Origin: Candidatus Bipolaricaulota bacterium
GTDB taxonomy: Bacteria > Bipolaricaulota > Bipolaricaulia > UBA7950 > UBA9294
DNA length: 50,883 nucleotides
Direction of reading: 5' to 3'
NCBI GenBank assembly: GCA_018817505.1
Contig: JAHITR010000056.1
Span: forward strand, 1-50,883
The stretch's first letter is position 1. The number at the start of each line of letters is the position of its first letter. A program made the position numbers and the translations under genes. Shown in pieces: positions 22,189-31,140 of this stretch. The notes beneath the pieces are model-generated. The model had not been told where the DNA came from, searched no databases, and was given only the letters and a program-made list of their open reading frames with translations.

Positions 22189-22683
22189 ATGGCGACGGCA
22201 ATCTACCCAGGAAGCTTCGATCCAATTACCAACGGACACATCGACATTGTACGACGGGCGCACAAGCTGTTTTCCAAGCTGTACATCGCCATTGTCGCCA
22301 ATCCCAACAAGAATTCGCTATTCACAGCCGATGAGCGAGTAGAGATTACGATGGCTGCACTTGCTGAAGAGGGCATTCATGGCTTGGAGGTCATCAGCTA
22401 CCACGGCTTGCTTATTGATTGCGCGAAGCTACACGGCGCAGATGCCATCGTGCGAGGGCTGCGCGCCAACTCTGACTTCGAGTACGAGTTCCAAATGGCG
22501 CTCACCAATCGCGACTTGGCTTCAGAATTCGAATCCGTATTCTTCATGACCGCCAAGCGCTACAGCTTCCTCTCATCCTCAGTCGTCAAAGAGGTCTGCA
22601 TGTACGGCGGAGATATCTCCAACTTCGTTCCCCGCTCTGTAGAAGAGGCACTCAAAAGTAAATTTCTGCACACGAATCGCTAG
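22189..22683 (+). CDS. coaD: Phosphopantetheine adenylyltransferase
   Basis: Nucleotidyltransferase that makes dephospho-CoA from 4'-phosphopantetheine and ATP, the penultimate step of CoA synthesis. The 164-residue protein starts MATAIYPGSFDPITNGHIDI, with the adenylyl site TNGH. It has GLLIDCAKLHGADAIVRGLRANSDFEYEFQMA and FFMTAKRYSFLSSSVVKEV, all CoaD hallmarks. The frame is open upstream to 22156, but ATG 22189 is where the family begins. The nearest ribosome site (AGGAG, 22170-22174) is 14 bases away and is better placed for an out-of-frame ATG-TAG at 22179-22184. The stop is one base from that of the convergent acetyltransferase gene. Confidence 0.95.
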   Translation: MATAIYPGSFDPITNGHIDIVRRAHKLFSKLYIAIVANPNKNSLFTADERVEITMAALAEEGIHGLEVISYHGLLIDCAKLHGADAIVRGLRANSDFEYEFQMALTNRDLASEFESVFFMTAKRYSFLSSSVVKEVCMYGGDISNFVPRSVEEALKSKFLHTNR

Positions 22684-24329: not shown

Positions 24330-24654
24330 TCTTGATATCCTCCTGCTCTATTCAATCCCGTCACTTGATCGCGAATCGTCGATCAGTTGGAATCGCCGCG
24401 CCGTCTCAGGCGGTCAAGCCGATTCAAAGTGTATATCACTGCACACGCCCTATCGGTTCGCACCGCTCATTTGCTCCGCCTGTTGGCATATCGTGCCATT
24501 CCCATGACGTGTGCGTTTCTCATTTTGCGCAGCAGGTTCGCTCTTCTCGTTTGCGACGCGTCGGCCCCTCCACTAGGATTGCACATGACCTGTCGATCCA
24601 TACGAACAACATCTGTGAAGTTGCATCCGCACGCAGCCATTCAGGAGGGCAGAT
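24330..24654. other. Divergent intergenic region upstream of the RdhA-like gene
   Basis: 325 bases without a supported gene. It carries the leader of the minus-strand acetyltransferase and the candidate promoter of the plus-strand Fe-S protein gene. No repeat or RNA element was recognised. Confidence 0.5.
24551..24579 (+). promoter_or_regulatory. Possible promoter of the RdhA-like gene
   Basis: TTGCGA (24551-24556) and TAGGAT (24574-24579) are 17 bases apart and lie about 75 bases before the TTG start. Confidence 0.4.
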
Positions 24655-25644
24655 TTGACGAAGAAAGTCGACCAACCGACATACGAGATCGATTCTGCAG
24701 TTCATGGACGCTTTGACGAGCGAAACACCATCTTCATGCGCCGATTTTGGGATCATGCAGCCAGCTTCCACGGCGTTGAGTATCGAGACCGCGCCGCAGA
24801 ACGCATTGCCACCGGGGAACCTGGCTATTCGAGGATCGAGTTCGCCCGCATTCTAGCGTCATGGACAGTTCATGACTGTTTTGGCGGAGCGTTTTCTTGG
24901 AGCAGATTGGGAGAGGCTGACCCCAGCATGATGCAGTTTGATCGCTACGCAGATGATCCAGACGAGATGACTAGGCAGGTCAAGAAAACAGCCAAGCTAT
25001 TTGGCGCCAGCCTCGTTGGCATTTGCGAGGTCAACAAGCAATGGATCTATTCTCACAATCGCAGTGGCGACGCCGTGGCCATTCCGTCAGAGTGCACAAC
25101 CGCCATTGTGATGGCCATTGAGATGGACAAGGAAGGCGTGGCCACATCACCCGAATATGCGTCCGCAGTTGCTACCGGGGTCGGATACTCGAAGATGGCC
25201 TTTGCCATCGCTAGCCTGTCAGAGTTTCTACGAAACCTTCGTTACAAGGCCCTGCCCATGGGTAATGACACAGCTCTCAGCATCCCGCTGGCCATCGATG
25301 CTGGATTGGGGCAATTGGGGCGCAATGGCCTGTTGGTCACACCCGAGTTTGGTCCACGTATTCGACTGTGCAAGGTTCTTACAGACATGCCGCTGGTTGT
25401 CGATCAGCCTATCGATTTTGGTCTCACCACGTTCTGCAAAACATGTGACCGATGTAGCACGGCATGCGAAGCCGATGCGATCAGCACCGAGCCCGAGCCG
25501 ACCTTCGAGATCGCATGCCCCTCAAACAATCCTGGAATCAAACGCTGGGCTGTCAATGCTGACGGCTGCTACAACTTCTGGGCCAAGAACTCGGCGGCCT
25601 GTTCCAACTGCATTGCCGCGTGCCCGTTTTCAAAGATCGGCTAG
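24655..25644 (+). CDS. Reductive-dehalogenase-like Fe-S protein (no Tat signal)
   Basis: The 329-residue protein matches the cobalamin/Fe-S core of reductive dehalogenases: GYSKMAFAIASLSEFLRNL, ALPMGNDTALSIPLAIDAGLGQLGRNG, VTPEFGPRIRLCKVLTD and PIDFGLTTFC. Two [4Fe-4S] sets are complete: Cys261, 264, 267 and 271, then Cys305, 316, 319 and 323. There is no twin-arginine signal, and the protein stops six residues after the last cysteine, lacking the usual C-terminal extension. No rdhB anchor gene is adjacent. The start is TTG 24655 with AGGAGG six bases upstream. I infer a cytoplasmic corrinoid-dependent reductase; substrate unknown, dehalogenation unproven. Confidence 0.78.
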   Translation: MTKKVDQPTYEIDSAVHGRFDERNTIFMRRFWDHAASFHGVEYRDRAAERIATGEPGYSRIEFARILASWTVHDCFGGAFSWSRLGEADPSMMQFDRYADDPDEMTRQVKKTAKLFGASLVGICEVNKQWIYSHNRSGDAVAIPSECTTAIVMAIEMDKEGVATSPEYASAVATGVGYSKMAFAIASLSEFLRNLRYKALPMGNDTALSIPLAIDAGLGQLGRNGLLVTPEFGPRIRLCKVLTDMPLVVDQPIDFGLTTFCKTCDRCSTACEADAISTEPEPTFEIACPSNNPGIKRWAVNADGCYNFWAKNSAACSNCIAACPFSKIG

Positions 25645-27691: not shown

Positions 27692-27872
27692 CGTCTCATT
27701 CTAAAAAGTCACGCCACGTATGCAAGCTTCTTCGTCACATGTCGCATTTCGCCAATACGCGACACCTGCTTCGCGCTAGACTGCTTGAGTGACATGGCGT
27801 CTGAAGAGCTTTGCTTCCCGAATCGTCGGATCATGGCTCATTCAGACAGTCTGCCATCATAAGGAGGATGGA

Positions 27873-29959: not shown

Positions 29960-30177
29960 TTGTCCTCACCTTCCCGATTCGCGTCAGTTGGATTCACCCC
30001 CTGATCTGAATATCTATCATACATGACGAACGTTTGGGAGTCCCCGCCCACATTCCAATCTAGAGGCTGAACGACAGGATACTGGAGGATGACGGCAGTC
30101 GGTTGAGATGCACGTCATTCTGCGTGTACTCTGTAGCAAATCCGCACCCAACATTCACCACTTCAGGAGGCAACTCA

Positions 30178-31140
30178 ATGTCGTGCAGACCCCTGCAGCA
30201 TACAACGCTTGAGGGACATCGCATCGTCTTTAACTACGCGACCCTGGCCGCCGGCCGCCTTGCCGAGCTCCAAGCATTCATGGACGAGCTGATTGAACAA
30301 GAGCGAATCAGTCAGCAAGAGACGTTTCAGGAATACGTGCGCGATGCACACTTCGCCTTGCCTCCCGAGTTCCCAGACGCAAAGTCCGTGGTCGTCTTTG
30401 CACTATATACGCCGCTGGTGAGGGCAATCTTCCACTTCAATGGTAGGAGCGCTGATCTTCTTATCCCACCGCAATACTACGGATTGGGACTGCCCAAGGA
30501 TGCGGCCTCTAGGATCGTTCTGAATGAAATCCTTTCTTCTGGCAGCAGTCGACTCGAACGGTTGCCCCACGCACATCTCAAACTGCTGGCAGTGCGCAGT
30601 GGTCTTGCTCAATATGGGCGCAACAACATTGCCTATGTTGAAGGAATGGGATCCTTCATCACACTCGCCGCCTTCGTCACGAACGAGACACTCGCAGACG
30701 AATGGACTGATCTTGAGATGATGCCGTTATGTGAAACTTGCACGATTTGCCTCGACGGTTGTCCGACGGGGGCAATTCGCGCGGACGAATATGTCATCGA
30801 TGCGGGCAAGTGTCTCACGCTCTACAACGAGATGTCAGGAGATTTCCCCGACTGGATTCCGGCGGACATCCACAACGCGTTCATCGGATGCATGCGCTGT
30901 CAGCTGCCTTGTCCAGCCAATCATGCGGTCGTGAAGGATGCCGGACGGCTGCCCGACGTTTCCGAGAGCGAGACACGCGCCATCTTGTGTGGAGACCCTT
31001 CAGCGCCTGAGATCGCATCGGTTGCCGAGAAACTACGGATAAGCCTCGCAGATGTAGAAACTCTGCGTGTTGTGTCGAGGAATGTGCGAGCGCTCCTCGA
31101 TCCCACGTCGTTGTCGGCACCAAAGCTTGACAGCGCCTAG
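30178..31140 (+). CDS. QueG-like double [4Fe-4S] cluster protein
   Basis: The 320-residue protein belongs to the wider epoxyqueuosine-reductase/RdhA-like Fe-S group. The middle holds AHLKLLAVRSGLAQYGRNNIAYVEGMGSFITLAAFVTNE, the cobalamin-pocket region of QueG-like proteins. Cys185, 188, 191, 195 (ending CP) with Cys212, 238, 241 and 245 (CP) form two [4Fe-4S] sites. The N-terminal QueG catalytic region is not clearly conserved, so true queuosine synthesis is doubtful. The start ATG 30178 has AGGAGG seven bases upstream; the open frame begins at 30103. Its TAG overlaps the stop of the convergent peptidase gene. Confidence 0.8.
   Translation: MSCRPLQHTTLEGHRIVFNYATLAAGRLAELQAFMDELIEQERISQQETFQEYVRDAHFALPPEFPDAKSVVVFALYTPLVRAIFHFNGRSADLLIPPQYYGLGLPKDAASRIVLNEILSSGSSRLERLPHAHLKLLAVRSGLAQYGRNNIAYVEGMGSFITLAAFVTNETLADEWTDLEMMPLCETCTICLDGCPTGAIRADEYVIDAGKCLTLYNEMSGDFPDWIPADIHNAFIGCMRCQLPCPANHAVVKDAGRLPDVSESETRAILCGDPSAPEIASVAEKLRISLADVETLRVVSRNVRALLDPTSLSAPKLDSA

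Follow-up and report, generated by a model that had tools for sequence, protein, structure and literature searches.

A putative Asgard-type reductive dehalogenase, compact and probably cytoplasmic, from a Candidatus Bipolaricaulota bacterium

What does a protein of the respiratory reductive dehalogenase (RdhA) family do in a bacterium of a candidate phylum if it carries no Tat signal, has no recognisable RdhB partner and ends a few residues after its last cluster cysteine? The question is raised by a gene on a contig of 50,883 nucleotides from a metagenome-assembled genome (MAG) of Bipolaricaulota; the contig was analysed over its whole length and is called the window below. A preliminary description, made from the letters of the sequence, had taken the product for a cytoplasmic, non-respiratory corrinoid reductase. 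From sequence comparison we conclude, with a probability of about 0.72, that the gene encodes a soluble, cytoplasmic, cobamide-dependent reductive dehalogenase (RDase) of the kind described in Asgard archaea.

The open reading frame comprises 329 codons without an internal stop and begins, as the preliminary description had recognised, with a TTG codon behind a strong ribosome site (Table 1). Its RdhA-like character, likewise proposed there, is borne out by the RDH model TIGR02486, which the protein matches with 197.8 bits (NCBI cut-off 160.35, E 3.9e-58) and which yields 177.4 bits for the RDase in the genome search. Two Pfam models pass narrowly, PF13486 with 25.4 against a cut-off of 24.3 and PF12838 with 27.2 against 27; in the six-frame search of the genome, PF13486 stays below its own cut-off at 19.9 bits. 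The closest solved structures are RDases of the PceA type (8q4h, E 2.5e-54; 4uqu, E 9.6e-52), and the strongest match to a QueG structure is far weaker (5d6s, E 2.1e-8). Because a structure predicted from nine aligned sequences reached a mean pLDDT of only 35.3, the fold of the protein rests on sequence. Two scans of viral contigs, meant to deepen the alignment, found no relatives. A second protein of the QueG/RDH superfamily with a double [4Fe-4S] domain is encoded 4.5 kb downstream of the RDase (30103-31140, + strand). It scores 67.8 bits with the QueG model TIGR00276 and 38.1 bits with TIGR02486, both under the cut-offs, and is by that measure neither QueG nor RdhA.

The conserved active-site residues of PceA are Tyr246, Asn272 and Arg305 (Manoharan et al. 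2019, PMC6737245), and all three have an identical counterpart in the window protein. The two sets of [4Fe-4S] cysteines noticed earlier are complete (Table 1). At the position of PceA Arg305, all four rows of another Bipolaricaulota family, f6, have a lysine (L016, L043, L044 and L046).

Table 1. Positions of the RDase gene and its features in the window, and of the RDase gene clusters of family f6
Feature	Position	Strand	Basis
RdhA-family reductive dehalogenase of the Asgard type, 329 aa, with TTG start	24655..25644	+	TIGR02486, tree, purifying selection
AGGAGG ribosome site, 6 bases 5' of TTG	24643..24648	+	sequence
Shortened insertion between WIYS and AIP anchors, codons 134-141, 8 residues	25054..25077	+	alignment, count
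Tyr178, equivalent of PceA Tyr246	25186..25188	+	phmmer alignment to PDB 4uqu
Asn204, equivalent of PceA Asn272	25264..25266	+	phmmer alignment to PDB 4uqu
Arg237, equivalent of PceA Arg305	25363..25365	+	phmmer alignment to PDB 4uqu
First [4Fe-4S] set, Cys261/264/267/271	25435..25467	+	sequence, alignment
Second [4Fe-4S] set, Cys305/316/319/323	25567..25623	+	sequence, alignment
Six-residue end PFSKIG and stop after Cys323, without C-terminal unit	25624..25644	+	sequence
f6: RDase, then Gfo/Idh/MocA, then xylose-isomerase-like gene	L118 10238-12621		gene order (Pfam for one of the four f6 loci)
f6: same gene order	L121 1159-3541		gene order (Pfam for one of the four f6 loci)
f6: same gene order	L119 4482-6803	-	gene order (Pfam for one of the four f6 loci)
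f6: same gene order	L120 9273-11594		gene order (Pfam for one of the four f6 loci)

No hydrophobic stretch is found in the first 60 residues of the window protein, where the 19-residue Kyte-Doolittle maximum is -0.21, compared with 1.56 and 1.41 at the N-termini of two respiratory references; over the whole protein the maximum is 1.13, and no membrane-like stretch occurs anywhere. No hydrophobic run follows the Arg-Arg pair of residues 29-30, which all nine compared proteins conserve, and the frame is open for only 12 codons 5' of the TTG. We judged the absence of a Tat signal by hydrophobicity because a pattern for the Arg-Arg motif missed the PceA control; it also matched several rows without a hydrophobic N-terminus. 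For RdhB, a tblastn search of the window with two RdhB proteins returned nothing credible (best E 0.58), a weak probe since the two RdhBs match each other only at E 0.10-0.36, and a genome search, run without a positive control, was empty. Between positions 22600 and 28700, four open reading frames of at least 50 aa contain a membrane-like stretch (19-residue mean of at least 1.6); none of the four, on either strand, has an EXE motif of the kind described in PMC6797604, and none lies downstream of the RDase on the + strand within this interval. Thus the missing Tat signal of the preliminary description was confirmed, and its statement on RdhB agrees with the neighbourhood of the gene, within the reach of the weak tblastn probe. 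As judged from its sequence, the protein is very probably cytoplasmic.

The preliminary description had also spoken of a cut-off C-terminus. The stop six residues past the last cysteine is indeed there, and the end is short; the word cut-off is misleading, since the short end is found throughout the clade. In all 17 intact copies from f6 and the family of the window, f1 (15 genomes, the window included), 4-14 residues follow the last cysteine, compared with 67 and 74 residues in the two respiratory RdhA references. The 17 copies are those that remain of 21 f1/f6 copies after exclusion of G003 (locus L022/L009, with an in-frame TAG), G021 (a frameshift and a lost cluster cysteine), G010:C35 (gene incomplete because the contig stops there) and G030:C124 (no match in the same frame for residues 1-67). 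Asgard proteins extend further: six Loki homologues have 16 residues past the last cysteine, and among the best-scoring 30 loci from the phylum of the Loki genome there are 23 in three and 50-64 in 27. In that phylum, TIGR02486 matches 111 of 195 genomes at 1e-30; among the 114 matches, 52 go no further than model position 284 and 62 reach at least position 307. Between its WIYS and AIP anchors the window protein has an insertion of 8 residues, compared with 34 in a Sulfurospirillum PceA relative and 32 in two Loki rows. We therefore regard the short build as a feature of the clade and not as an accident.

The closest public relatives of the gene are L022 (84% identity), L023 (75%) and L030 (70%), the latter two from Candidatus Bipolaricaulota, followed by six contigs of Lokiarchaeota/Lokiarchaeia with 46-47%. 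Compared with L022, L023 and L030, pN is 0.09, 0.15 and 0.21, respectively, and pS is 0.71-0.77, with synonymous sites near saturation; the gene is under strong purifying selection. Among 100 genomes of the phylum, 19 have a homologue with an E-value no worse than 1e-20, namely 13 of 33 genomes of f1, 4 of 6 of f6 and two of f4, the last with a different, hybrid-like type. Upstream gene order, together with one downstream gene, is common to L022 and the window, and we take the genes concerned to be a Mg-chelatase-like gene, an amidohydrolase, pnp, an M16 peptidase and coaD. Since L022 keeps the same gene order, the window contig is consistent with its bin, which is 92.4% complete and 5.0% contaminated.

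Some of the relatives deserve a remark of their own. The homologue at L022 8001-8984 (the same locus as L009) has an in-frame TAG between the cluster sets, at a codon that specifies serine in the window protein, and the remainder of the gene looks to be under purifying selection. Together with the frameshift in the homologue of G021, this may mean that the gene is dispensable in some lineages, or may reflect assembly errors. Several genomes have more than one RDase copy: G010 and G030 two each, and G019 three, of which two are close together on one strand (L112 2102-3106 and 4134-5165, - strand) and the third lies elsewhere. In another Bipolaricaulota family (L047 and L048, from G068 and G085), RDases are encoded in open frames of 454 residues with strongly hydrophobic N-termini and resemble the hybrid RDases of PMC6797604; Bipolaricaulota has no entry in the portion of the hybrid-RDase listing available from that source.

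A maximum-likelihood tree of 68 rows, rooted on two QueG rows and with several long branches flagged by the tool, unites the 17 short-ended Bipolaricaulota rows in one clade (support 100/99). This clade groups with 36 Asgard rows (92/96, just under the star threshold of the tool), PceA and Dehalococcoides RdhA stand next outside, and all 55 rows together receive 85/94; the NpRdhA/BhbA types and two hybrids are placed elsewhere. The label Asgard was assigned, for 30 of the rows, on the basis of their origin as best-scoring loci from the phylum of the genome to which the Lokiarchaeota contig belongs. How the Bipolaricaulota branch is arranged relative to the Loki and the other Asgard branches, and hence the direction of any transfer, does not emerge from the tree. 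Further RDH/QueG-superfamily proteins of Lokiarchaeal genomes (L063-L068, approximately 290-350 aa) form a tree group of six of their own.

RDases without TAT signal and RdhB were published in 2019 for Loki- and Thorarchaeota (Manoharan et al., PMC6737245), and because this kind is already described in Asgard archaea, the unknown reductase of the preliminary description can be sharpened to an Asgard-type RDase. Two RDases of these groups, A0A532THV6 from Lokiarchaeota and A0A5C9E7E1 from Thorarchaeota, are listed as active when heterologously expressed (PMC13101508, 2026), a paper that also describes anoxic production of RDases in E. coli with the btu operon for B12 uptake. The primary report on the Lokiarchaeota enzyme is, to go by a citation list, probably that of Ng and Silver 2024. 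MAGs from Aarhus Bay encode RDases with incomplete or missing TAT (PMC12090745). The available portions of four open-licence articles in PubMed Central (PMC12766754, PMC10570749, PMC9979476 and PMC10681998) assign no RDase to Bipolaricaulota or Acetothermia. The novelty lies in the phylum of the host and in the compact build, and not in the absence of TAT and RdhB, which is known from the Asgard enzymes.

With the Asgard RDases the window protein shares this absence as well as the Tyr/Asn/Arg triad and both [4Fe-4S] sets, at 37.5-48.6% identity to the 36 rows. It differs in its bacterial host phylum, its gene neighbourhood and the shorter insertion and C-terminal end, and has no extra N-terminal 4Fe-4S domain as reported for Thor enzymes (PMC6737245). 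With respiratory RdhA it has in common the core, as far as sequence tells, the cluster cysteines and the PceA triad (34% identity to Sulfurospirillum PceA, 26% to Dehalococcoides RdhA); Tat-like N-terminus and C-terminal unit are missing, RdhB was not found and the insertion is shorter. RDases of the NpRdhA/BhbA type carry an N-terminal duplicate and a fused reductase; those compared measure 1069-1072 aa, against 329 aa here, and occupy a separate branch of the tree. Such catabolic RDases are cytoplasmic (PMC13101508) and, like the window protein, have no Tat signal. The hybrid RDases of Atashgahi 2019 (PMC6797604), which have transmembrane helices at the N-terminus, are likewise RdhB-less and from uncultured phyla, but a membrane-like stretch is absent from the window protein.

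In the window, no operon partner of the RDase was recognised. Upstream, a GNAT-family gene and an open reading frame without Pfam match are on the other strand, as are, downstream, two further frames without Pfam match and an AraC-type regulator; the next gene on the + strand encodes an M28 peptidase and starts at 27789. Neither a transporter nor an electron carrier was recognised beside the RDase. A search for sigma-70-like promoters found none (0.8 expected by chance), Rfam elements in the window amount to one tRNA, and five terminator-like hits all lie inside the RDase gene or on the other strand.

As to the supply of cobamide, the genome of the window encodes one clear protein with a B12-binding domain. 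Within f1, such proteins score over cut-off in 10 of the 13 genomes with RDase and in 4 of the 20 without (Fisher p 0.0018), and at E 1e-3 in 10 of 13 and 5 of 20, respectively (p 0.0047), where both p values ignore relatedness and completeness of the genomes. The three RDase genomes without a B12-binding-domain protein are G021, whose RDase gene is broken, G003, which has the in-frame TAG, and G011. CobS was found in none of the 33 f1 genomes compared with 10 of 14 controls, and the cobalamin riboswitch in one of 33 compared with 8 of 14, in a search that scored no more than 54 candidates in any genome. The cobamide is therefore probably imported, or else made by another route.

For the function of the protein, we infer cobamide binding, location, electron donor and dehalogenation as follows. 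By analogy with PceA, a cobamide would lie over Tyr178, Asn204 and Arg237; the two [4Fe-4S] clusters would hand single electrons to its cobalt, and the reduced cobalt would strip the halogen from an organohalide entering the cell. As neither RdhB nor a Tat signal nor a fused reductase domain was found, the electron donor would be a ferredoxin or flavodoxin of the cytoplasm. The substrate may, as a guess from the behaviour of other expressed RDases, be halophenol-like. What was tested thus supports the preliminary description also in its view of a cytoplasmic, non-respiratory corrinoid reductase, with location, cofactor binding and activity as putative properties.

Other explanations of the gene have to be weighed against this one. 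QueG, the epoxyqueuosine reductase, belongs to the same superfamily, and TIGR00276 matches residues 206-278 of the window protein, so that a divergent QueG might be considered; the score of 44.1 bits is far under the cut-off of 200, and the residues typical of PceA are kept. No QueG over cut-off exists anywhere in the genome of the window. QueA makes the substrate of QueG and was detected in 9 of 14 control genomes but in none of the 33 of f1, MAGs being incomplete. The two QueG rows are far off in the tree, so a nesting within ordinary QueG, on which the preliminary description would have fallen, is not observed. Within the limits set by incomplete MAGs, a role as QueG is excluded, and we give it next to no credence. 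Hardly more credible is the view that the gene is a respiratory RdhA in decay or shortened by truncation, or that its 3' end is a sequencing artefact, although the TAG in L022 and the frameshift in G021 could be cited for it. The open reading frame in the window is intact and under strong purifying selection, and a 3'-terminal frameshift, which the preliminary description had named as a danger to its reading, is ruled out, as is a truncation, by the 17 intact copies, all of which end alike.

It is also unlikely that the protein, though descended from reductive dehalogenases, is a cytoplasmic corrinoid/Fe-S reductase acting on a substrate without halogen, for example in a reductive deoxygenation or a cyclitol or sugar step; what speaks for this comes from the sister lineages. 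Downstream of the RDase and on the same strand, a Gfo/Idh/MocA oxidoreductase gene is present in all six Loki and all four f6 loci (in L025 the locus stops within this gene; one Loki and one f6 copy have a Pfam assignment), at a distance of 32, 32, 569 and 789 bases in the four f6 loci. In f6 the xylose-isomerase-like gene follows, and a nearby gene presumably encodes, by our reading of the sequence, a regulator of the LacI type. A gene for a DegT-type aminotransferase comes next, on the other strand, in three of the Loki loci. The lysine in place of Arg305 in f6 also fits a different substrate. Manoharan et al. discuss arginyl-tRNA synthetase, agmatinase and deoxyhypusine synthase as neighbours of Loki RDases (PMC6737245). 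Against a non-halogenated substrate, the window protein keeps the complete dehalogenase triad, and neither probe detected Gfo/Idh in the window or the f1 loci examined. Moreover, the Gfo/Idh proteins of Loki and f6 are merely 21-26% identical and hence no shared inherited pair; their position beside the RDase would reflect either recruitment on two occasions or, the family being very large, mere chance. For these lineages the neighbour points, if weakly, to a sugar-like substrate. Going further, it is conceivable, though improbable, that the TAT-less RDases of Bipolaricaulota and Asgard archaea serve an intracellular sugar- or cyclitol-like step, in which a halogen or other leaving group is removed, and not organohalide respiration or detoxification, with Gfo/Idh/MocA recruited twice and the RDases having crossed between bacteria of one phylum and the Asgard archaea of anoxic sediments.

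If the window gene encodes an Asgard-type RDase, as we favour, the TAT-less, RdhB-less enzymes described from Asgard archaea are widened to a candidate bacterial phylum, in which they form a conserved clade. An RDase hit alone is accordingly no ground for calling Bipolaricaulota organohalide respirers. The compact frame of approximately 330 residues may help heterologous expression, and may help to show what the C-terminal unit and the insertion of the larger enzymes do.
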